This document shows positions 29,153-52,700 of a DNA stretch of 64,000 nucleotides, piece by piece. Position 1 is the first letter of the stretch. Each line of letters begins with the position of its first letter. The position numbers and the translations under genes are program-made. The notes under the pieces were generated by a model. That model saw only the letters and a program-made list of their open reading frames with translations, ran no database searches and was not told the DNA's origin. Origin of the DNA: Chrysophaeum taylorii (Eukaryota; Sar; Pelagophyceae; Pelagomonadales; Pelagomonadaceae); NCBI GenBank assembly GCA_029834535.1, contig JAQMWT010000379.1, forward strand, positions 248,001-312,000, read 5' to 3'.

Positions 29153-29167
29153 TCAAACCTCTTCATG

Positions 29168-29206
<39 letters not shown>

Positions 29207-32200
29207 TTTTGGCTGCTGAGCCGAGGACAATTGTTGTTGTTGTTCTTCTTCGACGCCGCCCTTGGTGGCGACGTCGTCGTCGTATACTTTTTCGTCATCG
29301 TCGTCATCGTCGTCGTCATCGACGGCGGGTTCCGGGGCGGTCGCTTTCTGGCGTCGTCTGACAGCGCAGGCGCGAACCATAGCCTGGATGAGGGTGCAGC
29401 AGGTGGATATTTCGGGGTTGTCTCGGGCGCAGTCGAGGGCGAGGTCGCTAGCCTCGGCCGCGTTAAGCTTCCGGGTCAGGAGGATAACACGTCGGCAGCC
29501 GCCACCTCTCGCGTGGGCGAGCTTGTCGCCGCAGAAAAGGGCGAGGTCGCGGCCGAGTTTGAGGTCGTCGAGGCCGGCGAGCGAGAGCGCGGGCTTGCCG
29601 TGGACGTAGGCGTCGAGGGTATTATTGTCGAGGGCGTCGACGACGAGGGTCACAACGCACCAGCGCTTAAAGAGAAGGCGGGCTCCGTGATGGGCGCGGC
29701 CGTCGGCGGCGAGGAGGCGGCCGTCGGAATCGACGTAGAGGGTCGCGGGGCGGGGTGTCGTCGCGTGGGAAACGCGGACGAGGGCGGAGACCGAATCGCG
29801 CGGAGGCGGGCGGTCGAGCTTGATCTCGAGCGTGAGGGAGTAGGCGGCGAGCGCGGGTCTCGCGATGTTTTTTTTTTCCCTCGAGAAAGTCTTGGCGGGA
29901 AGCTGGAGGAGGAGACCGGTGCCGGGGTCGCACCGCAGGTAGGTGGGCTTGTTGGCGGGATCGGCGCGGTCGGCGAGGACGGCGCGGTCGTGCGCGAGGA
30001 CGCAGCGCTCGCAGACGCGCGAGTAGCAGCTCCAGCAGATTCTCGTGCAGCCGCGGGCGTCGCGGGGCTTGCACCGCGAGCAGCGTTCCCAGGAACATTC
30101 AAAGGGCTTGAGGGGTGATCCGCAGACGCAGTCGAGGGGGGGGACGGGGCGGCGCGAGACGCGGTCCAAGTCGAGGGGAGCAAAGGCGCAGGTCGGCTTG
30201 AGGCGCCCGGGGAGGGTGGTCGTCGCGGTCGCCCGCGAGTCTCCGCCGAAGGCATCTGTCGCGCGGCACCGGAGGGGCTTGCGCTCGGCGCCGAAAGAGA
30301 ACGTCGTCTCGACAGCGTCGGGTCTTTCGAGGACGCGTGGGTTGAGGCCGTGGTCGCCGTGCTTTCGCTCGGCTTCGGCGAGCTCCTCGTCGTAGAGCTG
30401 GCGGTCGAGGACCTCGGCGCGGGCCTCGGCGCGCGCGCGTTCGGCGGCGGCGTCCTCGATCGCCGCGCGTCGGCGCCGGAGCATCGCGTCGCGGATCTCG
30501 TCGGCGCCGTAGGGCTCGACCTTGAGCGAGGCCTGGTGGTCGCCCCTAATACCGTCGTCGTCGTCGTCGTCGGCGTCGACGCGGAGAGCGTCGACGAACT
30601 CGGCGAAGGTGAGGGATCGCGGGAGGTCGGGGGTCTCGGGCGGGGATCCCGAACCGGCATCAACGAGGCGCGCCTCGGGGTTTGCGGCGAGCGCCATGAA
30701 GTCGAGGACGTCTTCGGCGTCGATGAAGTCTCCGGCGCCGAGGTAGCGAAGGGCGCCGTAGACCTCGGCGGGCAAGAGGGAGCCCGTGTTAGCGTCGTCG
30801 AAGGCAGCGAAGGCCGCCCACCACGATAAACCGCGCTTCTCGATGGCCGCGCGCATGAACACGGCCGTCGCGCGGCGCGCGACGAGGGCGTACTCGTCGT
30901 CAATCGCAAAGGCGCGGCCGAGGGGAGCACGGCGCGGGGCGCGCTCGAGGCGGCGACGCGCGCCAACGTTTGCGGCAAAGTAGCGCTCCCGGCGGCGCGG
31001 CGGGGCCTTGCGGAGCGCGCGGACGAGGGCGTGGAGCGCGGGCTCGGAAAAGTGGACGTCTCCGTCGAAGAAGCGGAACGCGTTGTGCGCCAGCGCAGCC
31101 TCCGACGCGGTCGCGCCCGTCGAGGCCGCGGCCGACCACCACGCGCGCGACGCGTCGAGGACGACGCCGCCGTCGCCCGCGCCGCGAGCCTGACTCTTTT
31201 GGTGGCGCACCGCCTCGGACGCGCCGGCGTCGGTCGTCGACGCGTGCGTTGCGAGAGGCGAATAGCGGAGCGCAATCTCGGGCGGGTCGGCGCGGCCGGC
31301 GGGCGTCGCGAGGGCGCGGTCGCGGCGCACGTGGAGAGCGCGCCGGAGGGTCTCGGCCTCGGCGAGCGACACCGCGACCCAGTACCGGTTCTCGTGCTCG
31401 GGTTGGAGCGCGCCGCACGAGACGAGGGCCGTGAAGCCCTCGACGTCGATCGCGCCGTCGGGCCCGGCGAAGGCGCGCGCGAGGGCCTCGAGCTCGTCGT
31501 CCGTCCGCAGGCGGCCGACGTCCTCGACGACGTCGACGGCATTCCGGAGCGCCTCGCGCGACAGCGCCGCCCCGCCAGCGCTGAAGAGCGCGTGCGCCTT
31601 GGCGAGCGACGCGCGCTGCGTCGACGAGAGGTCGTCGTCGCGCGCCTCGCGCAGCGCGTCGTGCTTCCCCAGAGGGGCCCATTCGAGCAATACGACGACG
31701 TTCTTGAGGCGCCGCAGGCCCATCCACGATCGCCGGAAATAGTTGCGCGACAGCAAGAGCTGCCTCGGAAAGGCGAGGGGCTCGTGGTGCCGGAGCGCAA
31801 AGTCGGCGAGCGGATAGAAGGCGTGCGGCCCGTCGTCGCGGTCGCCGAGCTGGCCGGGTTCCGGCGGGAGTTGGGCGAGCATCGAGAGCGGCCACGGCTT
31901 GGGGGCCTCCTCGTTCCGTGAATACTCGCGCTCCACGAATTTTTCCACCTCGATCTGCTGGTCCTTGCGCGCGCGGACCTCCTTCTGCTGCTCCTGCTCC
32001 TGCTCGCGCTCCTGCTCGGTGTCGAGTCGCTTCGCGCCCGATCTCGAGTCGGCCAGCACGTATCGCCCTACCTCGGCGAGCACCTTGGTCGCCGTCGCCT
32101 GCTGCTCGGGCTTGGCCGCGAACTCGGCGTGCTCCTCCAGCAGCGTCCGCAGCCGCTCCTCGAAGGGCACCGGGTCGGGCACCGCCGCCTCGAGAGAGAA

Positions 32201-35200
32201 GTCGATCGGCTCCTCGAACACGCGAAGCGCGCGGCCCGTAACCCCCGAGGCATTGGCAAAAGCCACCGGGCGTCGGAGCTCCTCCTCGGGCTCCCCCGTC
32301 GCGAGGTGAAAGAAAGCCTCCTTCCGGTACACGTTGCTTATGTTCTGCGCGCACAGCATCGACCACTGCAGCTGCTCGGCGCGCAGCGAGTTGACGACGA
32401 GCCACGCCACGATCTCGGCGAGCGGCGAGATGTGGGGACCACCATTATTTCGAGCAGTCGTCAGGCTCAAGATGCCCCCCCCTCCGCCGTTGTTGTCAGT
32501 CGCGGACGGCTCCAAGGCGCGGCAAGAACCGAGCTCGTGCGCGACGAGGCGACGCACCTCGGGGATGACGACGACGCGGACACGCTGGCCTGTCCCGATG
32601 CCGCGCATGCGGAAGACACCCTGCGCAAAGTCACGCCAGACCATGTCCTTGCCGAGCGTGACGAGGGCCATCGCGTTAGCGACGTGGCGGACGTCGATGC
32701 CCGTCGTGTGGACCTGGTCGTAAAAGGCGAAGCGGCGCTCGAGGGGCACGCCGCACTGTTCCTCGGGCATGGCGCGCATCGTCGCGCGCACGAGGACCTG
32801 CTTCTTATCGTCATCGTCGAGGTAGACGACGCCGTCGCACCACGCGAGGCCGCGCTTGAGGAGATCGGTCGCAACCTGGCGGTTGGTGCGTCCCGTGACG
32901 AGGGCGCCCGTGTCGATGAGCGCGTGGATGCGCGGCGCCGTCGCCGTCGCCGCGAGCTCGAGGAGGTCCTCGACACTCCAGCCCGCCGGCAGCTCTTCGC
33001 TCGAGCACACGTCGCGATCCAACACCGTCGCGAGCATCTTGCCGTCGTCGCCCTCTTGGTACTCGCACGCGCCGAGCTCGAGAGGGAGGAGGTCGGACGG
33101 CGTCCCTGAGAACCCGACGCGCCGCGCAAACAGCATGTCCCCGCCGATCGCTTGGCCCGACGCCGATATCTTGCGCCGCTGCGACCGCATGTGCGTCGGA
33201 AACACCGCCGTCTCGAGGTAGTGGTGCAGCGCGAGCGGCTCTCGCCGCCACAGCTCGAACAACTTGTCCATCTGCTCCTCGTTCGACTTCTGGAGGAACT
33301 TGAGCTGAACCACAGTCCGATCATCGTCCGCCTTGGTGATCGTCGCGGCGCTGCCGGACTTTTTGTTTTCCGGGCGCGTCTCGACGCCGGCGGCCGAGCG
33401 CGCGAGGTCATCAAGACCGCGGATGCGGCCGCCCGACGCGCGGACCCACGCCTCGTGCCGGCGACTCGACGGACGGTCGCATGCCGGACCAATCTCGCGC
33501 GCAAAGTCGGCCGTCAGTGCGTCGGCGAGCTCGTCGAAGTCCTCGCGCCGCAACCCCGAGTATCGGTACGCGAGGCACGTCATGCCGATGGTCACGTCGG
33601 GGTGTGCGAATTCGGACGCCGACGACGGCACATCCTTGCCGACAAACGGCACGGCGAGCTTGAGGCGGGACCGCGGCATCCGCGGGTCGTACGCAAGCGC
33701 GCGCTCGATGTCCCGCTCGTCGAGCAGGCCAAACGAGACGCGGTTGACCTTGGCGAGGCAGTGCGGCAAGTACGTTTTGAGCCAGTCGCGAGCTAGGTTG
33801 AGCAGCTTCTTGTGAGAAGGCGACGATACCTTGGCCATCACCTTGGCAGCGAGCGCAAGCTTTCGGAGGAATCGCTCCTGCGCACGCACGGCCCTCGCCT
33901 CGACGGCCGAGAGCGGGCCGTCATCCTCCTTGGCGAATGCGAGCGCGAGCGCGAGCGCGGCGTCGCGAGACGACCCGACGGCGTAGTCGTCCAGCTCGTC
34001 CTCGCTCGCACCGTTCGTCGGCACCTCGATAGCGAGCGCTCCGAGCCGGCTTTTGATGACAGCCTCCATCTCGGCGTGGACGGTCGCGGCCCGCGACCGC
34101 AGCTCGCGCCGCCGCTGCTCGTCGGCGTCGAGCAGACGGCTCCGCTCGTGCTCGAGGGCCTCAACGCGCGCGCGCACACTCTCGAGCCGCGCCGCCGCGA
34201 CCTCCGCCGAGCTCCGAGGCTTCTTCCCGGTGGTGACGGCCGCGCTCTCGTCGTCTCCTCCGCCGCCAAGGTCGTCGTTAAGGTCGTCGTCGTCGTCGTC
34301 GTCAAGCGAGCCTGCACGCGCGGACTTCTTCGAGGGCCACTGCGGCCGCGACTGCACCCACGACACGAGCGTATCAGCCGTGTCGACGGCGACGACGCCG
34401 CGGCGCCACAGCGCGAGGCGCTGCTTCTCCGATGTCGCCGCGTGGCCGACGTAGACGCACACGCGCGATGGGTCGATCTTGGGATCCGCTGCCACCGGCA
34501 CCACCTTGTCCTGACGCTCCGCCGCGTCTGCTTTGATGCCTTTCGTAGATGCCGACGCCGCGACGAGATCACCAAGGAAGGCGTCGAGGTCGATCTTCGA
34601 GTCGACACCCAGCGCACGGCCGCGGGCGTCCGAGTCGCCGTCGTCGTCGCTGTTGATGCGCCCGCCACGGCCAGCAAGCGGCCAGGCGCCGCGGCCGCCC
34701 GACTGGCACATGTGGCCGTTGTGACTGCCCCACTCGCGACCGCAGCGCACGCAGGGGCCGTCCTTGAAGTGGTTGCGGGTGCAGGTGGGCCCGCAGACGG
34801 GGCGCTGCTCGCCGCCGCCCGCGAGAACGCAGCGAAGACGGCCCGCGGCGGCCAGCTCACGCGAGCGGCCCACGGCCTCGATCGCCTCGTCGCAGCGGCG
34901 CACGGTCACTCCCAGCGACTCCTCGAGGCGCGTGCACATCGACGCCACCGACATGGACGCGTCGAGCGAGCCCGCGTCATCCGAGGCCGTCTGGGTGAGC
35001 GCGCCGCCGGCCCCAGCGGCGCCAGCGCCGAATGCCGACGAGAGCCACACGACGACCGAGTTGTCGAGGGACGCGTCGGGCGGGCACTCGAGCTCGGCAA
35101 CGCGCCGTCTCGCGGCTGCGAGCCGCGCGTCGACCTTGGCCGTCGCCTCGGCCGCCACCGCCGCCGAGTCCTCGATCTCGCCCTCTATTTCGAAGATGTC

Positions 35201-38200
35201 AGAGATGAGGCGGCGCTGCGCCTCAGCAGACGCGTGAGCCTCGACGAGCGCGGCGACGGCCGCGGCGTCGCCCGCGACGCGCCGCTTATCAAGTTCGGCT
35301 TTGACGAGGCGGCACTCGACGGCGACGGCCGACCGCGACGTGACGCCGCCGAGGAGGTAGCTCACGACGTCGTCCTTGTCGACACCGTGGAGGTGCTGCG
35401 AGGTGAGCCACGCCCAAGCGATCTCGGCGAGGAGCGGTTTGAGGTGCTCGTGGTAGTACGCCGAGTCGAGAAGCGTGAGGTGCGGGAGCCTCTGGAGGGC
35501 CATGCGGTCGTAGCCGGCGTCGATCGCGTCGGCGAGGCGCTCGAGCGTGTCGAGCGTCGCGCCGCGGGCCTCGAGCACACTCGAACGCCGCGTCGACGCG
35601 TAGAAGACGGCGTCGACCAGCGCGATCGGCAGGAGCCACCGCTCGCCGTGTTCGGCGCCGTCGAGGGCGAACTTTTCTCCGCACGGAAAGTTGAGCTCCG
35701 ACTTGAGCGGGTGCAAGATGAGGTCCACTTCGTCAACGAGCATCGCGCCTTCGCGAAACAGCGCGAGGATGCCACGGAGGACGCGCGCCTGGCCCTCGGG
35801 CGTCTCGTGCTGGGACTCGAGCAAACTCGAACCGGCGGCAGCGGCGGCGTCCGAGGGCCTGGTCGACGGTGCTCGGGGGGCGGCCAACGCGGAATCATGA
35901 AGAAGCCGCCCGGAGGGTCCCCAGCCAGACGCGGTGTCGTCGCGGGCGCGCTGGAGCGCCTCGATGTACGACAACATGAGTGATTTGATGGTCGTGGGCG
36001 TGGCCACGACGACCGCCCTCGCGTCGCGCGCCGCGCGGAGTGACAACTCGAGCTGCGGGCTCACGACGCTCGATCGATCGAGATGGAGCGTGTAGACGCG
36101 CTTGGAGATGATCGTCGAGAAGGTGGAGCGCATCTGGGCGCGCGTCATCTCCAAGAGCGCCTTGGGCACGACGCAGGCAACGAGACGGTGGCCGTCGGCG
36201 AGCATGAGCGCGAGCAGGGGCGCCACGACTGTCGTCTTGCCGGCACCCATGATCATCTGCTTGACGCGAGAGACGCCCGCTTCGGCGTCGGCGACGAGCT
36301 TGGACACGACGTGGACCTGTTCTTCGCGGACGGCGATGTTCTTAACGAACTCGAAGATGAGGAAGCGCGGATCCAAGGTGACGCAGTCGGTCGCGCGCGC
36401 GTAGGCTCGCGGCGCCGCGAGCTGCGCCGCGAGGAGCGAAGCAAACTGTCGGATGTGGGGTGCCGTGACAGCCTCGGAAGCTCGGCGCTCGTCGGCGCCG
36501 AGCGCGCGGAGCGCCTCGAGCGCCGACCGGAGCTCGACGGCGTCGCCCGCGCACCTCGAGAGCGTTCCGACGCGGTTGGCCCGCAGCATCGTGACGGCCA
36601 CGAGGCGGAGCGTGAGCGCCGTTCGGTCGGCGGGCGCGAATGGGTTGAGGCGCCGTAGGTCGGCCGCGCCCGCCGACGATATGAGCGCGCTAAACGCGAA
36701 CTCGGGCCACACCTCGGGCACCCGGCCGGCGAGGCGTCGCAGCACGAACGCCGACGAGTCTCTGTCGTCGTCGTCGTCCACGGCGTTGGCGGCCGCCGTC
36801 ACGAGCGGCACGGCAAGGGCGACGGCGTCGGCATCGGCCTCGCGCGCCCGGCGGAGCTCGGTCTCGAGTTCGACGACGGTGGCGAGCGCGGCGTCGAGCG
36901 CAGCGTCGGCCTCGGTCGCGTCGGCGGCGTAAAACTTCTCGACATCGGTGCAGTCGCGGATGCCGGGGACTCTTGCCGCGCGCTTGGCGTCGGCGTGCGC
37001 TTTGGCGTCGTCGCGCATGCGCGCGAGCATCGCCTGGGCCACGGGCGTCTTGGCCGCATCGTGCCGGCTCACGACGTCGAACGGAAAGCGCCGCGGGACC
37101 TCCGAGGCGGCCGTGTCGCCGGCGACCGTCGAGACCACAAACTTGTCGGCGATTGCGTGCGTTGGGAAGGCGCCGAGGTCTTTGAGTTCGGCGTCGGCGA
37201 CAGCGAGCCGCCGGCACGCGCTACGCGCGGCCGCCTTTTCGGCCGACGTGAGCGTGCGCTTGGCCGCGTCGCGGAGCGCGCGCAGCTGGTCGAGGCCCGA
37301 GGTCGTCGCGTCGCCGCCGCCGTTGGGCGCGTCGGCCGCCGTCTTGAAGGCTCTGGAGAACGTGTCGGCGAGCGTCGCGCGCTCCGCCGGCGTCGACGCC
37401 TCGAAGAGCGCCTCGACCGCGCGCTTGGCGAAGTCATCGTTCGCGCGGCTTCGCGCCGCCGAGGCGGAAGACGCGTCATCGGCACCCCCGCCATTTGAAG
37501 ACGACAACGCGCTGTCGAGGGACCCGACGACGTTGTCGGCGCGTCCGCGCACGAACCGAAGCGCGGGCGTGGATGTCACGCCCATCGCGTCGGCGACATC
37601 GTCGCAGTCGTCGACGTCGAGACGCGCGAACCGCGCCGTCGGCGTCGAGAGCGCGAGCGCGCGGAGCGCGGGCTCGACGGAGCGGCTCGCCGGACACCAG
37701 GCCGCGTCGAAGCAGGCAACGACGAGGAGCTTGTCGTGCTGGCGCTTCTCGGCGCGACGGACCTCGGCGTCGACCCACGCGCGCCAGTGCTGCGCATCGT
37801 AGATATCGGCGGGCGCGCACGCAGCCGCGTGCGCGAGGTCGTCGTCTCGCAGCGCGAGCGGGTGGCCGATTTGCTCGGCGAGTTCGAGCATCTTGGGCGC
37901 TTCGACGGGTCCGATCTCGAACTCGCGGCGCGCCGAGTCGGAGAGTTCGACCCCCGGGACGCCGCCGTCGAGGTAGCGCGCCGGGTTCGCGTCGGGAATG
38001 CGGCAGGTCGAAGGCGGCGCAGGGAGCGCCTGGTGCGGGGGCTTGGGGGGAAAGAGGATAGCGCCGCGCTTGCGGCGGAGCCGCTGCATAACGGGGACGA
38101 CCTGCTCGAACAACTCGGCGAGCGGGCTCTTGGGCTCGCTCTCGTCGACCCACCCGTTGTAGCAGTTGCCCCGTCGCTTGCGACGCGTGTCGCGGAATTT

Positions 38201-41200
38201 GGGGAGCCGCACGCAGAGCTGGCGGTTGCGGCCGAGGACGTTGACGAGCGATGCCCACACCGACTTGACGCGGCGGTCCGAGTAGAGCTGCGTCAGGAGG
38301 AGCGCGAGGCGGTGCGAGTCGTTGGCCGTGCGTTGCTTCTTCTTGGAGAACTTGGCCGCCGCGCCAAAGCCGCCCGAACCCCACCCCCAGAGCCCGCAGT
38401 TCGTCCACGAGCTCCCGCAGATGTGCGCGCGCAGGTCGCCCTGGAAGAGCGCGTACAGCAGGAGGAAGCCGTAGCCGTGGCGCTCGCCCCGGAAGGTTTC
38501 GCCGTTCGCCCAGACCTTCTCGAGCAACGTCAGCGTCGCGACCCCGTAGAGGCTCGCGGGCGGCGCATAGCGCAGCGACAGCATCTCCCAGCTCCCGCGC
38601 AGGCCCTCCCCGACGAAGTGCCGCCGCAGCTTGGTCGCCTCGCCACCGCCGTCGGGGATCTGCATCGGTTCCTCCGACGAGCCGTCGGCCGACGGCGCCA
38701 GTTTGAACGTAAACGGCGCTCCGTCCACCACCAGCGACACCTCGAGGCGCCCGGCGCGCTTCGCCGTCTCGAGCGCTGCCGACACCTTGGCGTCGTGTGC
38801 GATCCACCCGTTGGGCGTCTCGCGCATCCACCTGATCTTCTCGATCGGCACGTCGTCCGCCGCCGTCGCCGCGGCGGCCGCCTTGTCGTCGTCATCGTCC
38901 TCCTCCGCCTCGTCATCGCCGCCGCCCTCCTCCGCCGCCTTCACCTTGGTCGTCGCCGCCGCCGCCGCGGCACTCTTGACGTGTCGAGGAGGACCCTTGG
39001 TCCTGCTTTCTTTGGACGGGGGTGTCGACGGCGGCGGCGCCGCCGCCGCCGCTGCCATCTCGGGGGCCCCACCTCGATCGGTCGACGCCGTCCGCTGCGT
39101 CGACGGAACGTCGTCGACGATGGCCACCGAGCAAATGGGAGGTTTCGCAATCTTCTCGAGCTCCTGGCGTTGCTTGGCATTCATTTTCACGATCTTCTCC
39201 GGCGATACGCGCGTCAACTGCGCGAGCTCCAGGATGGCCAGCTGCTCCTGCGGCTCGGCAGCCATGATCGACGCGAGGACATCGCCCTCGTCTTCGGGCT
39301 CGGCCTCTTCGTCGCCCTGGTCATTGCCGTCGTCCTTGGGAGACGCCACCGCCGCCGCCACCGCCGCCGCAGATTTGTCGCCGGAGGCCGCCTCTGCAGC
39401 GTCCGCGTCCCCTTTGCCCTCCGACGAGTCGCCGCCTCCTCCGCCGCCTCCTGGTGTTGTCGTCGCCGGCTCTTCCGCGGCGGCATTCGTAGCGACAATC
39501 GCCTGAAGCGGGTCGCGCGCCGCGTCGGTGGGCTGTGCGTCGAGCGGGCACACCGCGACAGCCGGGTAACACTCGGTGCAGCCGAGGCGCTCGAAGATGC
39601 GATCGACAGTCGCGACGGGGGCCGGGTCGTCGTCGAGAATAAACACGATCGTCGAGGCCGAGGTGTCGAGGACAACCGTGATCCGCGCGCCCTCGCCCCA
39701 AAGCGGCTCGTCGGTCGCCGCGCGGACCTTGTGTCCCGCAACCCAGAGCTCGCCGTTGGCGTGGAGGCCGAGAGATCCTCCGTCGCAGTCGGGTCCGCCG
39801 AGGCAAGGGTGCACCGTCGGGCCGAGGGCCTCGGATCCCTCGGCGATGATGCCGACGCCGTCGGCCGCGCCGCGCGAGCCCGGCGCGTGGCCCCACCGGA
39901 GACTCCAGCGGTGTGTGCCGGAGTCGCGCTGGAGCGGGGCGGTCCCGCGAGCGGCGACGGCGTCGCGACCGCGCCGCGCCTCGCGCTGGCGCGCGAGGTA
40001 AGAGTAGTACTGCTGCTTCCACTCGTCGTTTCGACGGTCGATCGCCTCCTGGCGCTTGGAGAGGAAGCCCTCCTCGCCGGGGACCTTGACGCGCGGCCCG
40101 CGACGCCGGATGCGGATATCCTCGTAATCGCTTGTCATGTAGCCCTTGAGGCCAGAGATGCCGTAGCTGTCGATATCGAGATCTTCCTCGGAGAAGTAGA
40201 CGTGGAGCCCGCCGACCTCCGAGTCGTCGGTCACCGACATCTCGCGGTACAGCTTACCCGAGAGGTACGCGATCTCCAGGAACGTCTGGATCGCCGGCGG
40301 AAACGGCTCCCACTTGGTGCGCCACTCGGGCCGGCCGTCGTCGCGGCTACTCTCCCACACGGGGCGTTCCTCGTCGAAGTCGTCCGTCAACGGCAGAGCG
40401 ACTACCTTACCGAGGCCCTCGATGCGGAGGCCTTCCGCCGAAGCCTCCGGATCCCAGGTCCACAAGTTTTCGTCGTCGTCGTCTTCGTCGTCGTCGTCGT
40501 CGCGGTCGTCGTCGTCGTCGTCGTGGCGCGCCGCGAGGGCGGCCAACGCCTCGGTGCCGCCACCGCGCTCGAGGACCCGTTCGCGGCGGCGCCACGCCGA
40601 ATACGCGTGGTGGTCGTGGGACGAGACGTGCTGCTCGAGGTGCTTGATGAGGGTCGCGAGCGATCGGCCCTCGTCCTTGTCGTTTGTGGCCACGAGCGCG
40701 AGGTGGTCGTCGCCGCGGTCGAGCGTGAAGGTCGGGAAGGCCTCGACGCCGCGCGAGACGGCGAGGTCGTGAAGCGCGGGATCGGCGTCGACCTTGACCT
40801 CGACGAAGATGGCCGACGCATAGGTAGGCGCGAGGGCCGCGATCGACTGTTGGAGCGTCTGGCAGCTCGACGACCACGAGGCCGTGTAGGCCGTGCACAC
40901 GAGCCAGCCTCCAGGCGGCCGCGGCGTCGTGCTCCGCAAATCGGCGGGCGCAGAAGCGTCGGGATCGCGGCACTTGCAGGCCGCCTCGTATTCAGCGATC
41001 GTGTGCGCGGGGTGGACCTCGGCATAGGTCATGCCGAAGCAAGTCTCGTCCGTGTAGAGGGTCCAGGATTCGGTCGCGACGTCGCGCGGCGGGACGACGC
41101 ACTCGGCCTCGACGTCGCCGCGGAGCGCGGCGCGGAGCGTGTTGCGGCGGTTCTTGCACGTGGCGAGCGCGTAGGCCGTGTGGCCGGCGCGAGGGTCATA

Positions 41201-44200
41201 CGCGGGCGAATCCTCGTCGAGCGCGATCGCCTCCGACTCCAGCAGCCGGAGCTCGTCGGTCGCTGGGAGTCGGCACTCTGCAGAGACGTGGTCGATCTTG
41301 GCGACGTACCGGGCCATCTCCAGCGAGAGATCCCAAGGGGCCGCGTGGCCCGACTGTGCCGTCACCAACGCGACGCGCAGGCGTACGGCGTGCGCGTTGG
41401 GGTGCCGGTCGTCGTTGGCCTCGCGGAGCGCGCGGAAGATGGCGAGCTCGTCGGCCGACAGCGTGACGTCCGAGGCGACCGAGTCGCACAACCGGGATGC
41501 CGCGGCATAGTCGCGCTTGAGGAGCCGCAACAGCAAGAGGTAAAGCGCCGAAGCCAGCCCGCGCGGCAGCACGAAGGCCATCGAGACGTGCACGTTGTAG
41601 AGGAAGAAGCGCGTCGAGAGCGAGACGGCGTCGACGGCGTCGTAGACGCCCTCGTAGGTCCCCTGGCGGTCCAGTACGAGGTCCGTCGAGAACGGCTGCG
41701 ACCGGACCGGCGGCCTCTTGGGGATGATGACGGGCACGCAGCAGAAAGTGTCTCCGCGCGCGTTGGCCAGCAGGAGCGAGTGCTCAATGTCGCGAACAAG
41801 CGCGGCTGCCACGTCGTTCCTCTGATCGGGCAGCACGAACAGATCGACGTGATCGACCGAGAACAGCCGGACCTGGCCGTAGTGGTCGAGGCGCGTCGTG
41901 AAGGAGAGCTTGAGTCGAGGGAGTTCGACGAGCGTGAGCTCGGGACAACCACACGGCATTGCCTCGTGCTGCCCAACAGCCTCCTTTGTCCACGCGAGAA
42001 TGTGAGCGAGGTTCTCGATTCTTACGAGTGTCGACGCCAGCGAGTAAAGCCTCGACCCACGGCGCGCGTGGAGGAGATCCAGCAAATACAGAGTGCCGTC
42101 GTCGTCGTCGTCGTCCTCCTTTTTTTTTTGCGGATTTGGGTGGCGTTGCCTTCGCATCGCTTCCGAGGCGAGGTCGAAGACCGTCGCCAGCGGTTTAACG
42201 AGGGTCGAGTCGCGCGCGACCGCGTCGAACGCCGCTTCGCACAACTCGACGTTGTGGCCGGAAGCTTCGAAAAACTCGCCGATGACGCAGCGCTGGGCAT
42301 AAGAGAGCGAGCGGGTTGGTGGCCGGATCGAGAGCGGCTCGTCAGCCACTGAAGACTTGGCCTCGGAGACACCCGCCGATGTTGTTGTCCCCGGGGGTTT
42401 CCCGTCAAGGAGGTCCTCCTCGTCGTCCTCGTCGTCGTCCTCGTCCTCGTCATCGCGCCACGCCTCGTCCTCCGAGTCGGTGAGGCCCGAAAACTTCCAC
42501 TTGCCCTCGCCCTCGGCTTTGGCGGCGTCGTTGGCGCCCCGCGGCGCGACGTCCTCGGGGGGCACGGCGCGCTGGACTCCCAAATACGAAAACGCGTTGG
42601 AGAATTCGAGGTCGTAGGTACGCTTTTCGTAGTCGACCTTGACGACCTCGCACGGGATCCACTTGTCGTCGTCGCTCTCGGTCGCACGCGAGCGGAACTC
42701 GACGTCGGCACCCTCGCGGAATTCGATCTCGGCTTCCTTTTTGCGGGCCATTGCCTGCTTCTTCCGCGCCGAGCCTTTATTGGTGGCGCTCCTCTTGATA
42801 CCCGATGGGGGTGTCCTCTCTTCGTCCTCGGCGTCGTCGTCGGCAGCGACGAGGCCGAGGCGCTCGACGGCCGCGACGAGGCGCTGGAGGTCGTGGAAGC
42901 GGCGCTTCTCGCCGGCGAGCGAGCGGCGCGAGACGCGGACCGTTCGCTCCTGGCGGCCTGTGCACGCGAGGGGGGCGATGCCCGTCGACGCCATCTCGAC
43001 GAAAACGATGATATCGTCCTTGCCGCCGCCGAGGTCATCTTCATCGTCATTGTTGGACGTTCTTGTTCCCCCCGAGGGGACCGCGTCTTCGCGGAGCGGG
43101 TAACCGCGGAGGCGCGTGTCGGGGGGGGCGGCAAGTCGCGACTCGTCGCGCCAGAAGCGAAAGACGTCGAGGAGGGCCTCCGGGACGAGGCCGGCGAGGA
43201 GGCGGGGCGGGATGTAGGTCTCGACACCGCCCGAGAGGTTTGCCGGATGCGACGCGTCGCGGCGCACGACAACGCTCTCGCCCTGGCCGGTGTCGAGGTC
43301 CGCTGGCAGGTGCTCGAGGACGCCGACGGGGTAGGGTAAGCCCGCGCCGTGCTTCCACCACTGGGGAAAGGGCGTCGCGCGCCGAGTCACGACAGGCTGG
43401 AGCTCGGCGAGGCAGAAGCGCGCGTCGGTCGTGAGGTGGAGGCTCCACCACCACTCGCGGCCGCGCGAGACGAGCTCGTAGACGTGGACGCAGCGCCTGC
43501 GCCGGAACGCAACAATTCGCTTCGACGGTCCGCCAAGGCGCTGGTGTAGCCCAAATAGCACGGCGACTTCGGCATCGGCGGGGAGCGCGCCGTCGTGCAT
43601 GACGAACTGCATCGACGGCGGCACGGGCCCGTCGAAGAACGCGCGCCGAACAGGCTCAAAGACACGCGGGAGCCACAGCTCCGAGTCGAAGAGCTCGGCC
43701 GGGTCGTACTCGCGGTCGTAATTTTCCGGCATGGGCACACACTCCGCATGGGCCGAGTGCCACCACTCGACGGTGTGCTCGAGTCCAACAAGCCGAAATA
43801 TTTGGCGGTGGACGCTCCGCTCCGCCAAGCTCGCCTGGAGCGTCGCGTCCCCCAACACCGACCGCACGTCACGGTTCGTCGCCACGATCGGGTCGAGGGC
43901 CGCGAGGTGCTTCGACCGGAGCGTCAGCTGTCCGATCCCGATGTCGATCTCCACGTCCAGCTCTGCCGAGTCCGCCACCTCGCCTACAATCGCCGACATC
44001 GAACCGCTTCGACTCCGCGGCCCGACCGCTTCACGCGCGGCTGCTGCCGCGCCGGACGCGAGCGTTCGCGTGCTCGCGACCGTGTACCGCGCGCGATTCC
44101 GGTCGCCTTTAATGCGCGACCATCGGTTCACCTGGGGCTCGAGAGCGCCGCCGGCGAGGATGCCGCCGAGCGATGAGAACGCCGAAGGGGGGGAATCCGA

Positions 44201-47200
44201 CGACGACGACGACGACTCGCTAACGACCGCCCCCGTGCACGACGTCGCCGCGGCGAGTGCCGCTTGCATGACCTGCGCGCGCGCGTTGCTTGGTTGCGAA
44301 TCTTCTTGGAACAAAAGAGTCGCATACCATGTCGAGCTCGTATTGCGTCATGGCATGGATTTGGGAGACCAGGCCACGGCTAACATGCTGGAGGAGCTCG
44401 TAGAGCTCGAATTCGGGGAGCACGAGGCGGCCTTCCTCGCGCGTGGCCTTGTTAAAGGTGTGCCGGGTTGTGAGAAAGAGGAAGGAGCCCAGGAGCGACG
44501 CGCACGCGGCCCGCCGTCCGTCGTCGCTGCCTTGGGCGAGCGCGTTCCGGTGGATGAGGAGGCGGTGCGCGTGGAGGTCGCAGGCAAGGCGCGAATTGCG
44601 GTCTACGAGGGTCTCGTCCCCCGGCGACGCACGGGTCTGCGCATCAAGCTTGGCGAGGTAATCGTCGAAGAGCGTGGACACGCGCGCCAAAACGGCCGCG
44701 AGGCGCGAGGCGCCGTCGTCGATCGCGGCGATCGCGGCAGGGTCGCGGACGTCGAGGTCGCGGAGCGGGACGCCGCCAATAGCCGTCGAGTTGGCGTTGG
44801 CGCAGTCGGCGCGACCGCGCGCGGCGGCACGGGCGAAGGCGACGAAGGATTCGAGCCGTGCTCCGAGCCGCGCGGTGTAGAGGATGATCTGCACGCTCGC
44901 GTTGAAGTCGGTCGCATCGGCGTCGCACACGGCACCCGTGTCGAGAGCGAGCGCGCCGCGCAGCAGCGTGACCACGTTGTTGATGACGTTCGAGGGCGCC
45001 TCGCGGAGCTCGGCGAGGAGGTGGCCGTTGGCGGTCGCGAGGAGGGAGGGGTGGGGCGTTGGGACGGTAGCCGGCTCAACGTCTGTCGAGCCGAGCGCGA
45101 GGTGGCGACCGGGTTCGAATAGGACAGCGTCCAGGACGCCACGGAGCATTGGGCTCTCCAGCTTGTGGACACGGTCGTCCGAGGCGAAAAACGTCAGCAC
45201 GAGCGGGATGCGCAGGTACGGGACGGTCAAGTATGATAGCAGAAGCTCGGCGTCGCGCTGGCCAAGCGCCGGTACCTCAGGCCGACGCCTCGTCGCGTGA
45301 GGCGACGCCGAGGCCTTGGGGTCGCGATGGCCCGTCGCGGCCGTGGTCACCGTCACCGACGGGACCGCCGTCACTGCGCGTGAAAATCCGGGGAGCTGCG
45401 GGCGGTAGAGGATGTCGTCCTCGGTCTGCGCGGGCGGCGGCGTCGCGAGGTACGACGCGGGGTCGGCTCGCGACGGGAAGCGGTGCTGGGGGGCGCGCTC
45501 GGGCGGCAGCTTGCGGCCAGTGACCTCGTCGACGACGTCCGGATCGGGTCGGCACCGGAGCTGCTTGCCGCCCATGGAGACGCTGAAGCCGCCCTCGTCA
45601 GCGCTCCAGCCCCACGTCAGCTGCGCCTGGAGGCAATCGAGGCGGCCGACCTGTCCGCTGCCGCGATCGACGCGCCGGAGCGCCGCGCGGCTCGCGCGAC
45701 CGCGCGCCTCGTAGTGGCGGTAGTGGTTGTGGCCGTCGAGGGCCGTACGCGACGCGCGGAGCGGCGAGGGCGCGCCGTCGCCCGCGGCCGCGGGCACGTA
45801 GTTGCTGAAGCTCGTGCGGTCGGGGTTGAGAAAAAATTTCCAAAAGAAGGCGAGATCGCGGTACGGTCCGAGCTCTGGAAAATTCTTGAGCAGGTTGGAC
45901 GTGCACGGCAGCGCGTCGCACAGCTCGAGGTGGGGGTTGGGCGTGGCGAGCGTGATCTCGCGGCAGAGGCTGCGGAGGAGGGCAATGAGAGGCTTGCCGG
46001 GTCGCAGCTCAAAGCGGTCCTCGAACGCGAAAATTTTCTCGAGTCCGCGCTGTTCGGGGCTCGAAAAGTAGTCGAGCACCGCTGCGCGGGCGACGGCAAG
46101 CTCTGGGACGTGGCACTCGATCGAGGTCGTCTGCGTCGCGAAGGTCCCCGCTGAGAGCCCATACCCGCGGAGCCCGAGCTGTCGCCCGCTCGCCGTCTGG
46201 CCACCGAGCTGGGCCGTGAACGGCGACGGATGGTCGGTCGCGCGGCGTCGCAGCATTGCGTCTGCGATCGCGCACGCGACCCCCGGGATGACGACGCACA
46301 CGGCGTCGAGCGCGCGGTCCTGCTGCGTTGAGAGGACGGCCGCCGTGAAGTGCTCAATCACGCGCCGCAGCGTCAGCATCACCTCCACCTGCTCGGCGTA
46401 CTCGATCGGCTCATCCCAGATGCAAGGCGCCGACGACAGCCGCGCCTCGGCGTCCGTGCCGACGTCCCAGTTCGTCCCGTCATCCTCGACGATCTGGGGC
46501 GATGTCTCCCCCGTCGTCGCTCTCACTTTTTCTTCGGCGACGCCGGCGCGCCGCTTAGCCGGCATCGCTTTGCTCGCGCTCCGCGAGGCCTTGAGCACCT
46601 CGGCAGCGCGCTTCTTCTTGCGGGCGACGCGCTCGCGCCGACGCTCGGCGCGCCCTGCGCGCGCCTCGTCGGCCACCGAGACGTGGCGCCTCGCGCGTGG
46701 CCGCGGCGTCGGGATGACACACGTCAACGTGTGCTGGACCAGTGCGATGATGAGGAGCTTGTCGTTCTTGACGGCGTGCGGCTGGTTGTCGAGGAGCGAG
46801 CAGATGCGGTCGCAATGCCGCAGCGCCGCGATTGCCTCCGTCCGCGTCTTGGCAACGACAGGCACTTGGAGAGTGTCGATCGCGACATATTTACGCAGCA
46901 GTACTGCTTGGCCCGGGTCCGGCTCGGATGGGTCCACGCGCCACGCGAGCGCATCGCGCCACTGCGTCGGGATCGTGGAGGCGAGGTCCAGCGCCCCCGC
47001 CGCCGCGGCGTCACGGCTCGGCGGCACGTCGTCGAGCTCCGACAACAGCCGTTCTGCAAGCCGACGCGCTGCCTCGGGCGCAACCTCGTCGAACCGCGCC
47101 TCCTCATCCTTGCCTTTCGCCGCCGCCGCCGCCGCCGCCTCTTGCTGTAGTCCTCCTCGTCGTCGCTTCGCCCTCTCGGCGAGCTTTTCGGTCGTGTAGC

Positions 47201-49604
47201 TGAGCTGCTTGGCGACGAGTGCGACGACGCGACGGCCGTTCTCGTCCGGCGCGACCGCGGCGACGTCGCGCGCGCAGAACGTCGCCAGCTGCGCGCGGAG
47301 TGCGAGGCGGACCTGCTTGGAGTGGAGGTCGGTGCAGCCACGGCGGAGCATGAGGTAGTGGAGGGCCTCCGAGATGCATCGGACGTAGGCGGTGAGTGAG
47401 CGCTGAGGACTGCGCCAGGCGCCGCACTTGGATGCAGCAGCGGCACGCCGGTCGAACGCGGCTTCGTCGTCGCCCGCGTCCCAATCCAAGTCCTCAGACG
47501 AGGACGACGAAAAAAAGGCTTGGCGCGCCTCAGCGTCGAAGCGGTCGGCCTCGTAGAGCGAGGTCTCGAGGGGCTTGCCGGTGAGAAAGGGGAGGAGGAG
47601 CTCGTAGAAGCGCTTGGTGTCCCCCTCGTGGTGGTGGATGGCAAGGTTGTAGACGGCGGCCCAGAAGACGTCGTCAAGGGCGTTCTTCTTGGCGACGTTG
47701 GTCATGACGAGCGCGGTGCGGAATTTAATTTTTGGGGGTGTTTCGGCGGAGACAGCGTGGTGGCGGAGGGCCTTGGTGGGGTTGGTGGCGATGACGACGA
47801 AGGTGAAGTTTCTCTCGGTGAGGCGCTCAACGATCGCGAGGAGTTCCGAGTTTTCGACGATGAGCGGCAGCAAGATGGACTCACCCATGTCGAGGTCCTC
47901 AAGACGTTTTTTGAGGGCGCGGAGCCACGACGCGAGCTGGGGGGCGCCCGGGTTGCGCAGGAGGCGGACGATGCCCTTCATGAGGGGGGCGGACCTCGCG
48001 ATGACGTGTGATGCGTCCGACGCGGCGGCCTTGGCCTGGAGCGGCATACCGGCGAGAAAAACGCGCTGGTCCTTGAGCGCGGCGCGGAGCGCGAGATCGA
48101 GGACAGCGTGGGACCAGGCGAGGATCGAGGCGGCCTCGAGGGTAGTGCCTTCGACGTAGGCGTCGCCAAAGGCGCCGACGAGGGCGGGGGCCTCCCAGCA
48201 GGGTCGAGGTTTGGCGAAGAGCTTGGCGAGCGAGAGGCCTTTCCTCAGGTCGTCGACTTTGCGGGCGTTGTCGGCCTCGAAGGTCGAGAAGAGCTTGTCG
48301 CGAGCGCGGTTGCGGCGGACTGCGGCGTCGTCGAGGGCCTTGGCGTCGACGCGGCAGGTGCGGACCAAAATGTTGCCGGGCATCATGCGGTCCGAGCGGC
48401 TCGAGAAGAGGAAGAGGCCGTCCGACCTGAGCGCGAAGCGCTCGTTGGCGGCGATGCGCTCGTGGCGCACGACGGCGGCGGGCTCGGCGCCCACGTAGGT
48501 CCGGAGCTCGCCTTTTTTGACGCGCGCTCCCTGGGACGCGCACTTGACGGCGACGACCACGCGCTCCCAGACGCCAACCTCGACGCGGCACTTGGCCACG
48601 TCGCCGTACGTTCCCAGGACGCCGACGCCGCCGGCCGCATTGACGAGCGCCTCGCCGTCCGACTCGCGCGCCCGTCGCCGTCCGCCGCGGCTCTCCTCGG
48701 AATGTACAAGCGCCGTCTGGAACAGCGACAACCCGCCCGGCGGCGGCTCGTCGTCGAGCTTGACGTCGAGCGTGACCGTGTACTCGTTGAGCAGTTCGCG
48801 CGGAGGCGCGACGCGGTAGTACGACGTCGTAGCGTACGAGGTCGAATACCCCCGTCGACCGGGGTCCCCGGTGCGACGCGCCTCGTCGTCGCGCGCGCCC
48901 GTCGGCGAAACGAGCGACGCCAGGTCGAGCTTGAGCCTCGCACCTGGCGCGACCTCGAGCGCCCACGAGCCGTCCTTGAGGCGCCGGTACTTTGCGCCGC
49001 TCGGCGCGCTCCGCGCCTTCTTCCTCGCGGTGGTGCTGGGACGGTGCGCCCCGTCGTCGTCGTCGTCGGCGTCGTCGTCCAGCGCGAAGGATTCGCCCCC
49101 CGGGGGACGATTCGCCGGACCCGCGTAGGTCGGCTCGTCGAAGAAGTCCTTGAGGTCGTTGACGTCGTCGTCGCGCGAGAGGTCGTACCCTACGTCATCG
49201 TCCTTCTCCTTTTCCGCGGCCTTCTCGGCCTCGGCGCGCGCCGCATCGATGAGTGCCTGCGCCTCGCGCGGCCCGATGAGCTCGACCCCCTCGGGCCACG
49301 TCGTCGGCCCGCGACGCCAGTCGAAAAGCTTGGACGCCGCGTCGCCGTCGCCAAGGCTCGACCGCCGCTTGCCGCCTTTTTGCGGCCGGCTCGTCTCGGC
49401 GGTCTCGGAGGGCTCATCCCCCAACACGTCGGCGGCGAGCCCCGAATACGCCGTCGCGTAGTCGCCGACCTGCACCTCGCCGACGTCCCCGAGCCCCTCG
49501 TCCTCGGCGACCGCCGCGCCCTGCGATGGATTCGCTGGTTCCCGACCAAAGTTGTACAAATCGTCGTTGTCATCCTCCTCCTCCGAGGGCGTGTCGGAGA
49601 ACAT
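29153..49604 (-). CDS. Giant DUF3638/DUF3645 multidomain protein with SF2-like ATPase core
   Basis: Two exons, 44328-49604 and 29153-44272, about 6,798 residues. A 55-nt intron (44273-44327, GTATGC...GCGCAG) joins QYELDM|VMQAALAA in phase, and each exon frame stops shortly beyond it. The start is the first ATG (49602-49604). Regions, approximate: acidic N-terminus; ConA/LamG-like 270-425; family-typical block LLSYLTVPYLRIPLVLTFFA near 1470; Tudor-like 2275-2330; thioredoxin-like 2880-2970; SPRY-like 3205-3330; second thioredoxin-like 3930-4010; DUF3638 with Walker A MGAGKTT near 4435; DUF3645 with VDEVDLILHPLKSELNFP near 4605; Cys/His cluster 4915-4955; SGTPSD near 5480; TTGIDV and QGVFRMRG near 5612-5641; Glu/Gln coiled coil near 5850; EF-hand-like 6205-6290; Cys-rich zinc-like 6473-6515; second ConA-like 6563-6720; IQ-like; acidic tail. 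Family function is unestablished; databases sometimes label relatives ubiquitinyl hydrolases, and I see no evidence for that. Confidence 0.9.
29171..29206. repeat. (GTC)n microsatellite encoding poly-Asp tail
   Basis: Twelve GTC triplets on the plus strand, read as a poly-Asp run at the C-terminus of the giant protein. Confidence 0.95.
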
Positions 49605-49774
49605 GTGGCGCAATGGACGCTGCGGAAGAAATGACGCTGCGCTTCTTGTCGGCGCGTCTTTCTTCCTCGCGAAGCACCTTATTAATATAAGAGGGCTCCC
49701 CTCGTCGGGCTCTTCCTTTTTTTTTTACCGTTGACCTCTAGAAAAGATATACCTACGCACTATTTCCACCAGAG
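49605..49774. promoter_or_regulatory. Divergent promoter region between two giant genes
   Basis: 170 bp between the start codons of the ~6,800-codon minus-strand gene and the 2,757-codon plus-strand gene. It includes a short AT-rich part (TTATTAATATAAGAGG near 49680) and a T run. The AT-rich patch could act as a core promoter element; this is inference. Confidence 0.45.
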
Positions 49775-52700
49775 ATGATGCTGCAGGGTCGTCCGCAGCA
49801 GCGCAAGCGCCACCTCCAGCCTCTCGGCGGTCGCCGCCACGGGGAAATGCCGCTTCGCAGCGGCAAGCACACCGACGAGGCCCCGAGACGCCAGACTCCT
49901 CCAACTACGACTGCGAGTGCTTCTCCTTCGGCAGGAGGAGGAGGAGGATACACCGACCTGACAGAGCTCGAGCGGAGGTACCATCTCCGCCAGGACCTCG
50001 CCTCGTCGACCTCGCGGATCGATGCAATTTTGGCGTCGATGGTGTCGCGGGACACAGACAATTTCGACCAGGACAGAGCGCGGCTGGCCCAGCTTCTGGA
50101 AGGGCACGCCTTCCAAAGTCGCCAGGTGAGCGAATCGCTGAGCGAGATAAGCTCGTGGCAGCGAGCAGTCGCCGAATCTCGAATGGTCGAGATAGCTGAG
50201 AAGGAGGCTACGACGTCTGATATCGCGACCTCGACGAGAGAAGGCTACAAGCTGATGGCGGAGATCGACGACTCGAATCGCAAGCGCCTCAATTTCGTGC
50301 GCTCGGCGTGCGAGCGCGCCGCGACCGCCGAGGCACGGCTGCGAGATAGCACCAAAAAGCAAAACAACAAGCAACGTTCCGTCGGGCATTTGTCAAACTC
50401 ATCGTCGTCGTCAAAAGCCGCGATCGACGACGACGATCCCGAGCTGCTGGCGGAACAAGGCGAGATTGCCAAACTTCGCGAACAGGCGACCAAGGCGCAG
50501 GAGGGCGTGGCACAGGCCGAGCTCGAGGCTCAGACGATGGCCCACCAGATGCGCGAGGCACAGGAGACGGTGGCGGCGGTGCGCGACGAGTATGACCAGG
50601 AGATGGACAAACTATCGCGAGTGGTGGCAAACCTCGAACAAAAGGACCGGATCGTACACCTCAAATGGCGCGACGGCGCCGTGCTCGCGAGCCAGGACAT
50701 GAGCACCTTTCGGTCGGCCTCCAAGTCGTTGCCGGAGGCGACAAAAATGAAAAAGGAGATAGAGACGCTCAAGGAATCCCTGGCGCAGGAGCGTCAAAAG
50801 GCGCACGATGCATCATCACAGCTCCGCACGAGCCGGGGTCTGATTGCCGAACTCGAGGACGACCTCAAGCGAACGCAAGACGAACTCCAACGCCGTATTG
50901 GCGGAAAGGACGACAGCAAGGCCGACGAGCACCCGGATGAGAAAACGCAGCGGTTGTTGGCCTCGACCTCGCCCGATCTCGGTGACCTCATCCATGCCGC
51001 TGTCCGACAAGCGCGGCGGCCCGCGCCGTCGTGGGAGGTCATGAAGGCCATCGTGAGACACCTAGAGCCGGCCTACCATGCGCGCCAAGCTGCCGAAGAA
51101 ACAACCGAGAAACGCGTCAAGCAACTCGAGGCCGAGCTCCGTAAAATCACCGCTAGCGAGCGGGCGAAGTCGTCACCTTCGGTCGGGACTTCCAGCAGCG
51201 AAGAGGCCGCCGCCGCGGGGGAAGCTTTGCGCATCGCGACCGAGCGAACCGAATCCGCCGAGCAGGACGTTAAGACTGCGGAGGAGCGCGCCTCAGCTGC
51301 GGAAGAACGCGCGATGGACGCCATGACCAAGCTCGTGGCTGCTCAGGCCGAGGCCACCAGGGTTGGTGATGAATTGGCAAAGTTGCACAAGGTGCACGCG
51401 GAGGAGCGCGAGCGTGCGGACCGCGCCGTCAAAGAGGCGCAGCTTGAACTGCGCCAGCTCCGCGAGCAGAAAACTAAGGATGCACCCAAGCAGCAGCGCA
51501 AAGATCGTCGCATGTCGAAAGCAAGCAAGCCGAAGGCGCTACCACCCGAAAGGAGCGAGCAGTCCTCGGGCCCGCGAAACGTAGACGAGGCCGTGGCATT
51601 AGAAGAGCGAATCGATCAATTGCAAATCGAAGAGGAAGGCTTACGGGGCGAAATCGAACGCAAGAACAAGATACTGGCCCTTGTGAAATCGCAGTGTGCT
51701 AGCACTGACGAGTCATTAAAACGACGCAAGCGCGAGCTGGCGTCACTCGATGAGCAGCACGAAAAATTTCAGGCGGAGATTGTGCAGCTGACTGCGCGAC
51801 GCGACAGTGTAAGGATGGAACTCGCGTCGGCGCGACGGGATCAGCTGGAACAACAGCGCCTTTTGGGCCACGTCAACGTTGAGGTCGAGACTGAGGAGAC
51901 ATTCGATTGTCAAGTGCAGACTAAGTGGACGCTTGATGCCACCGCATGGCAAACCCAATCGGAACGTGCGCCGCAAATCGAATCGAAACATGAGTTGCCA
52001 ACGGTCTTGACCAGTGCGGCGTCTGTGTCTCAAACCAAAGCGGGGGTTGACCAGCAGCGCACCCACACAACGTCCGTGCTTCAAATCAAAGCCGGGGTTG
52101 ACCCGAAGCAAACCAACTCGACGCTCTCGCCTCGAATCAACGTGCGGGTCAACGAGCCGCAGCAAATTGACACAGCGTCGTCGACACCACAGACTGAAAT
52201 GGTCCCCAATCCTGTTTTGGCAAACGAACCCAACGAAGAAAAGTCCGAGCGTGCCCCCCCTCCTCCAAAGGCAAGTCTTCCAGGTGCTGCTCGAAAGCAT
52301 CACTCGTGGACGAAACCTCGCAACACCGAGATCTCGCCCACAATTAGCCAACCTCCGGAATTGGCGATCGAGCAAGAAGCCGGTCGGGAGGCGGAGGATG
52401 TCGCGCACCTGACAATCACACCACCTATGGTCCTCCGTGAAGTGGATGTTGATCGTCTCATTGCAGAGCGCCTGGCAGTTCATTCAGATGTTCCTTCGAC
52501 ACCATCGACTGGTTTTGCCTGCTTGTCACGATCGGTAGTCCTCTTGCGAGGTGAGATACCTGCGTCGAGACAAGCGACACCGCCGGCGATGCAAAGAGAG
52601 ATCTCAGTGCCAGAGCTGGCGGGAGAACCTCTGTTGAATGGAAACAGCCGGCCGCTTGCTTCAGACGACCAAGTTCGAAACTACGTCGATGTTCGTCTCC

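Follow-up and report, generated by a model that had tools for sequence, protein, structure and literature searches.

A superfamily 2 ATPase core in a giant DUF3638/DUF3645 protein of Chrysophaeum taylorii

In a 64,000-nucleotide stretch of the genome of the marine alga Chrysophaeum taylorii (contig JAQMWT010000379.1, positions 248,001 to 312,000; hereafter the window), a minus-strand gene at 29153-49604 encodes a giant protein of the DUF3638/DUF3645 family, and the locus raises the question of what such a protein does. Analysis of the window protein and its relatives indicated, with good support, that DUF3638 and DUF3645 both fall within a single superfamily 2 (SF2) ATPase core, which has two lobes and lies in the C-terminal half. 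As to function, we tentatively favor, at slightly less than an even chance, an ATP-driven, protein-directed SF2 motor linked to ubiquitin signaling, not a deubiquitinase; the protein client and the ubiquitin link are hinted at by modules fused to the core in relatives. An earlier, sequence-only reading of the window had proposed a family protein of about 6,798 residues with several modules, which stands, but it treated the length as unusual beside the roughly half-length fungal and oomycete members, named two modules for which no support was found, and overlooked the main functional clue, namely the SF2-type ATPase core, its main motifs intact, that contains both DUF domains.

Membership in the family was confirmed by Pfam: DUF3638 (PF12340) matched residues 4393-4538 (E 1.8e-27, 96.5 bits against a cut-off of 31) and DUF3645 (PF12359) residues 5292-5324 (E 1.6e-14, 53.3 bits against a cut-off of 25). 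Fungal members carry DUF6606 at the N terminus. This domain, which the sequence-only reading had named beside the other two, was absent from the Pfam matches of the window protein at E<=1. Relatives were collected in two protein searches. The first covered proteins of about 2,770-8,820 aa, scored the 1,151 candidates with the most words in common and yielded 65 proteins; the second, from which 120 of 151 matches were listed, brought the union to 162 proteins. The parts of the core are as follows:

35936..36373 (-), DUF3638 match, residues 4393-4538, in the first RecA-like lobe
36230..36250 (-), motif I (Walker A), MGAGKTT, residues 4434-4440
35723..35734 (-), motif II (Walker B), DEVD, residues 4606-4609
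34706..34795 (-), C/H-rich module CGPTCTRNHFKDGPCVRCGREWGSHNGHMC, residues 4919-4948, CxxxCxxxH-CxxC-H-HxC, inserted between motifs II and III
33578..33676 (-), DUF3645 match, residues 5292-5324, within the II-III insertion
33095..33115 (-), motif III, GFSGTPS, residues 5479-5485
32585..32725 (-), motifs V (HTTGID) and VI (QGVFRMRGIGTGQ), residues 5609-5655, in the second RecA-like lobe

The core alignment comprised 61 rows, the window protein and 60 relatives; the duplicate P0001 and the proteins P0028, P0063, P0064 and P0065, in which one side of the core is absent, were dropped. The M, G, G, K and T of motif I (MGxGKT), the DE of motif II and the F, S, G, T and P of motif III are present in all 61 rows, and most rows have the full DEVD. 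The H, T, T, G and D of motif V are each retained in 59 or 60 of 61 rows, and the first arginine of motif VI (QGxxRMRG) in 58/58 ungapped rows. In the window protein DUF3638 spans motifs I to II, and motifs III to VI fall outside both Pfam matches. Simple patterns found motifs I, II, III, V and VI in order in 137 of the 162 fetched proteins (the 25 misses were not inspected singly). The preservation of these motifs, including the arginines of motif VI, suggests a complete ATPase cycle and argues against a regulatory or scaffold ATPase, in which the SF2 core would change conformation on ATP without moving or pulling and the protein would serve as a hub where ubiquitin, redox and Ca2+ signaling meet. 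The very large extra part with its helical stretch and the many optional modules speak for such a hub, which we nevertheless consider unlikely in comparison with a protein-directed motor.

The closest structural counterpart of this putative motor was sought with a fold prediction made not on the window protein but on the core of the relative P0024, which is short (about 1,000 residues) and 50% identical to the window core. The predicted fold consists of two RecA-like lobes, and its PDB matches are SF2 ATPases, with SecA, the bacterial protein-export motor, at the top; 22 SecA rows align over 414-568 residues. Besides this best fold match, the core shares with SecA the DEVD motif II, the GT in motif III, a long II-III insertion and a helical region after lobe 2. 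It differs from SecA in that no sequence-level link was found and in that the giant has a fused N-half. A SecA-like layout of the core is thus moderately supported by the model. Motifs II and III lie 166-183 residues apart in 7/7 SecA proteins, whereas the distance is 334-1065 residues (median 401) in the 137/162 family members with all five motifs found and 873 residues in the giant (P0001).

Part of this enlarged insertion is the C/H-rich module. Its pattern, C-x3-C-x3-H...C-x2-C...H...H-x-C, was found in 22/65 proteins, all 22 of them with PF00085 in a precomputed list, and a slightly different C/H pattern in 25/162. The eight C/H positions are invariant in the 14 aligned of 23 known copies, partly since the pattern demands them. 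The module had no Pfam match at E<=5, and its best PDB profile match, RNF31, was marginal (E 0.01). The zinc module of the sequence-only reading is borne out as a conserved C/H pattern, which probably binds zinc. The sole other copy found in the genome lies at the end of a 1,510-aa frame (L073:1614-6143(-), contig C393) that has a UBA match over cut-off and sub-threshold matches to Mind-bomb SH3 and RING. The module common to the giant and this frame appears to be mobile, and Pfam has no model of it.

UniRef names the window protein and many relatives 'ubiquitinyl hydrolase 1', and by that name they would be thiol deubiquitinases. One relative, P0134, has N-terminal ubiquitin and OTU1_UBXL matches, although we take OTU1_UBXL not to be the catalytic domain. 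Pfam searches of three pieces of the window protein gave no deubiquitinase domain of the OTU, USP or UCH type at E<=1, and metal-dependent deubiquitinases were sought only in this general search. Cysteine conservation was examined in the 61-row core alignment and in a 43-row full-length alignment (the window protein and 42 relatives over 3,800 aa). No cysteine was invariant in columns at least 80% filled; the best columns had 54/61, 53/61 and 39/42, counts that alignment errors could depress, against 61/61 for the ATPase residues. Because neither a deubiquitinase domain nor a well-aligned invariant cysteine was found, the label is unsupported, and a thiol deubiquitinase is very improbable. A looser connection to ubiquitin is suggested by fused modules: WWE (10 proteins), UBA, UBA_7, RanBP zinc ribbon, RING, ubiquitin or Mib_herc2 occur in 23/65 proteins.

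A nucleic-acid motor or sensor, that is, an SF2 RNA or DNA helicase fused to regulatory modules and working much as RIG-I-like or SNF2 proteins do, is a possible but doubtful alternative. DEAD-box, SNF2 and RIG-I-like SF2 ATPases have the same two RecA lobes and motifs I, II, III, V and VI, and in hhalign comparisons the lobe 1 profile matched DEAD-box lobe 1 with a probability of 85.7 (P 5.4e-6), where lobe 1 of known SF2 pairs scored 90.1-97.6 and controls with swapped lobes 0.1-0.4. However, the DEAD-box and SNF2 proteins measured in C. taylorii have no comparably long stretch between motifs II and III: the distance is 29-34 residues in 7/9 and 27-35 residues in 7/10, respectively, with both motifs found by pattern. 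Moreover, no RNA- or DNA-binding accession was recognized in an unsystematic inspection of the Pfam list of the 65 proteins. The entries checked by name are ubiquitin-, lipid- or protein-linked, with matches to FYVE, PX and Vps62 among them.

Several observations weigh against a SecA-like, ubiquitin-linked protein motor. The best Z-score for SecA is just 1.1 above that of Dengue NS3 (16.1) and 1.5 above that of INO80 (15.7), and the fold model comes from a relative at half identity. Since the cut-down SecA structures (3bxz, 5k9t) align over just 345-347 residues, the equivalence of the II-III insertion to the SecA clamp is not established. In the profile comparisons, lobe 2 matched no SF2 family tested (0.0-0.7, where SecA against DEAD-box gave 85.4), and the probabilities between core and SecA were 1.0 for the whole core, 9.6 for lobe 1 and 0.0 for lobe 2, with SecA profiles that were shallow (5 to 7 sequences); the whole core gave 1.8 with DEAD-box and 16.1 with SNF2. 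SecA_DEAD (PF07517) had no match at E<=1 in the Pfam search of the window protein, and its search of the C. taylorii genome (70.8 Mb and 697 contigs as searched) at E<=10 picked out three loci but not that of the giant. Finally, 42/65 proteins, P0001 included, lack any of the listed ubiquitin-linked modules, and the WWE match of the window protein is below cut-off. Because the profiles do not tie the core to SecA, we say with caution that the core may work like SecA, not that it is a SecA.

SF2/SecA-type motors are also encoded in very long frames elsewhere. L074 of C. taylorii (contig C330; 1,756 aa) and L044, L045, L046 and L048 of Legionellales-type bacteria (2,926-3,856 aa) score over the SecA_DEAD cut-off and are additional to the normal SecA genes. 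In contrast to the giant, these five proteins match PF07517, not DUF3638, and profile comparison gave no link between the four bacterial ones and the DUF3638 core.

The protein that carries this core is encoded by two minus-strand frames, which when joined give one product of 6,798 residues with its sole stop at the end:

44328..49604 (-), exon 1, 5,277 nt (a multiple of three), residues 1-1759, no Pfam match at E<=1
44273..44327 (-), intron of 55 nt, GT-AG, first bases GTATGC and last bases GCGCAG
29153..44272 (-), exon 2, 15,120 nt (a multiple of three), residues 1760-6798 and the stop
29351..29389 (-), IQ-motif-like IQAMVRACAVRRR, residues 6721-6733, placed by sequence and alignment

The sequence-only reading had joined the same two frames through the 55-nt intron, and this holds to the exact coordinates. 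The residues around the join read YELDM|VMQAAL, and the alignment is ungapped across it in 12/12 giant relatives printed (from 14 others of at least 5,600 aa) and in 4/4 shorter ones; P0002 (6,247 aa) aligns in a single stretch from residue 204 to 3337 at 56% identity. The deposited C. taylorii record CTAYLR_001253 (P0001; 6,682 residues) has the same start and exon join and shows 100% identity throughout residues 1-6682. Under independent bases of local composition, the log10 probability of 5,064 codons in a row without a stop is -43. That the intron was deduced from sequence would leave room for two separate genes or an artifact of the assembly or gene model, but in view of the ungapped relatives and the identical join this is extremely unlikely, and a single protein of 6,798 residues is well supported. 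For the genes of the published genome (71 Mb, 702 contigs) in general, the annotation is reported to have used RNA-seq and protein homology (PMC10366177).

The deposited 3' end looks short, because the frame runs on for 116 residues beyond it and relatives align past that point (29153-29506), up to the IQ-motif-like sequence; the end at 29153, as in the sequence-only reading, has the stronger support of the two. The guanine-plus-cytosine content in 4-kb steps is 64-71% over the giant gene (window 28001-52000), 55-61% in most of the remainder and 64% also at 60-64 kb. A divergent open frame of 2,768 aa at 49742-58048(+), whose first ATG and the start of the giant are 170 bases apart, had no Pfam match at E<=0.01.

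The length of the product is not peculiar to this gene. Proteins of at least 5,600 residues make up 15/65 of the first search (the window protein included) and 18/162 of the union of both searches, giants with thioredoxin and the inserted C/H-rich module exist, and the mean column identity among seven giants aligned to each other, the window protein excluded, is 50%. The window protein therefore belongs to a subfamily of giants that is conserved. Family proteins in the two search lists span 2,127 to 7,997 residues, and core identity to the other 64 proteins of the first search is 31-56%. Four members known by name, whose genera we take to be oomycetes, are shorter than the window protein (3,888-4,407 aa). 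Compared with the family at large, the giant adds thioredoxins and the inserted C/H-rich, WWE-like and LamG-like modules. Named members come from Babesia, Theileria, Leishmania, Bodo, Diplonema, Prymnesium, Effrenium, Ditylum, Vitrella, Chromera, Achlya, Aphanomyces and others, among which are one haptophyte, one dinoflagellate and one diatom besides oomycetes. DUF3638 genes are also reported from Tetrahymena thermophila (PMC12615304). The genome search placed DUF3638 and DUF3645 matches at five C. taylorii loci. Distant relatives were found in Legionella and gammaproteobacterial giants (L029-L035, frames of 2,968-4,290 aa), where motif I reads GGGKS in the row shown (L029), and the family was not found in viral contigs in two pattern-based scans. 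L028 (PABI01000099.1), a contig titled as an Anaerolineaceae metagenome-assembled genome (MAG), encodes a relative of 54-56% identity and is probably a eukaryotic contig inside a bacterial bin.

Outside the core, the following features were located:

48285..49007 (-), N-terminal conserved region, earlier called ConA-like, residues 200-440, kept in seven other giants
43070..46967 (-), intron included, family-wide N-half, residues about 880-2160, helical then beta-rich, by conservation
41000..42070 (-), family-wide conserved block, residues 2494-2850, by conservation
40634..40894 (-), first thioredoxin-like domain, residues 2886-2972, SWSSSC, first active-site cysteine absent
39515..39967 (-), SPRY-like region, residues 3195-3345, E 0.0076, below the Pfam cut-off
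38702..38830 (-), WWE-like, residues 3574-3616, 20.1 bits against a cut-off of 21.1, over cut-off in P0028
37523..37732 (-), second thioredoxin, residues 3940-4009, active site WCPAS, by Pfam and alignment
30581..30814 (-), EF-hand-like pair, residues about 6246-6323, degenerate in the window protein
30002..30130 (-), C-terminal cysteine-rich, zinc-finger-like stretch, residues 6474-6516, C/H columns kept in 7 other giants
29450..29881 (-), C-terminal Laminin_G_3/ConA-like domain, residues about 6557-6700, positioned by alignment with relatives

The thioredoxin-like assignment of the sequence-only reading was upheld by a Pfam match (E 1.1e-15; two stretches in the searched piece). The first domain also matched NCBIfam pdi_dom (E 1.4e-5), at 25.3 bits, under its cut-off of 107.2, and lacks the first cysteine in 14/14 rows shown; at the second, 13/13 other long-form relatives shown have WCxxC, versus the single-cysteine site WCPAS of C. 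taylorii. The SPRY-like region reached E 2.4e-5 in a piece of P0002, likewise below cut-off, and was not detected in a piece of P0009. EF-hands had no match at E<=1 in the window protein, but EF-hand_7 was over cut-off in P0004, as were EF-hands in P0024. The C-terminal ConA-like domain gave no match at E<=1 here, yet Laminin_G_3 exceeded its cut-off of 27.6 in P0010 (30.7 bits) and P0002 (29.7). Two proposals found no Pfam support in the window protein or in P0009, the one relative tested: the Tudor-like module, and the N-terminal ConA-like domain, which in the P0009 piece had no match over cut-off. RING and B-box scores for the C-terminal cysteine-rich stretch were under cut-off in the pieces of relatives. 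An AlphaFold2 model of the N-half of P0024 (residues 716-1715; mean predicted local distance difference test score 84.3) is helical and then beta-rich, and had no PDB match at E<=0.001.

In the mechanism that we propose, ATP binding between the two lobes would drive a cycle of opening and closing. A client polypeptide might be gripped, as by the extra domains of SecA, between the insertion, which the probable zinc module enlarges, and the helical region that follows lobe 2. The N-half, with its helical scaffold and its thioredoxin-, SPRY- and WWE-like modules, would select the clients, chiefly proteins of ubiquitin- or ADP-ribose-marked complexes, and Ca2+-type modules may tune the motor; the protein would thus be a ubiquitin-linked protein remodeling motor. 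A bolder version, which we regard as a long shot, is that the family threads polypeptides as a eukaryotic motor of SecA-like layout and acts on ubiquitin-marked proteins, an unfoldase other than an AAA+ ring, in which the zinc module and thioredoxins of the algal giants would hold or reduce the client during pulling.

What is new in this analysis is the well-supported assignment of the DUF3638-DUF3645 core to the SF2 ATPases. Although the family has many members and a broad distribution, it is named so that experiments aim at deubiquitination, whereas the SF2 ATPase reading with mapped catalytic residues makes its function directly testable. If true, a motor of SecA-like layout with ubiquitin-marked proteins as its clients would represent a new class of protein remodeler.

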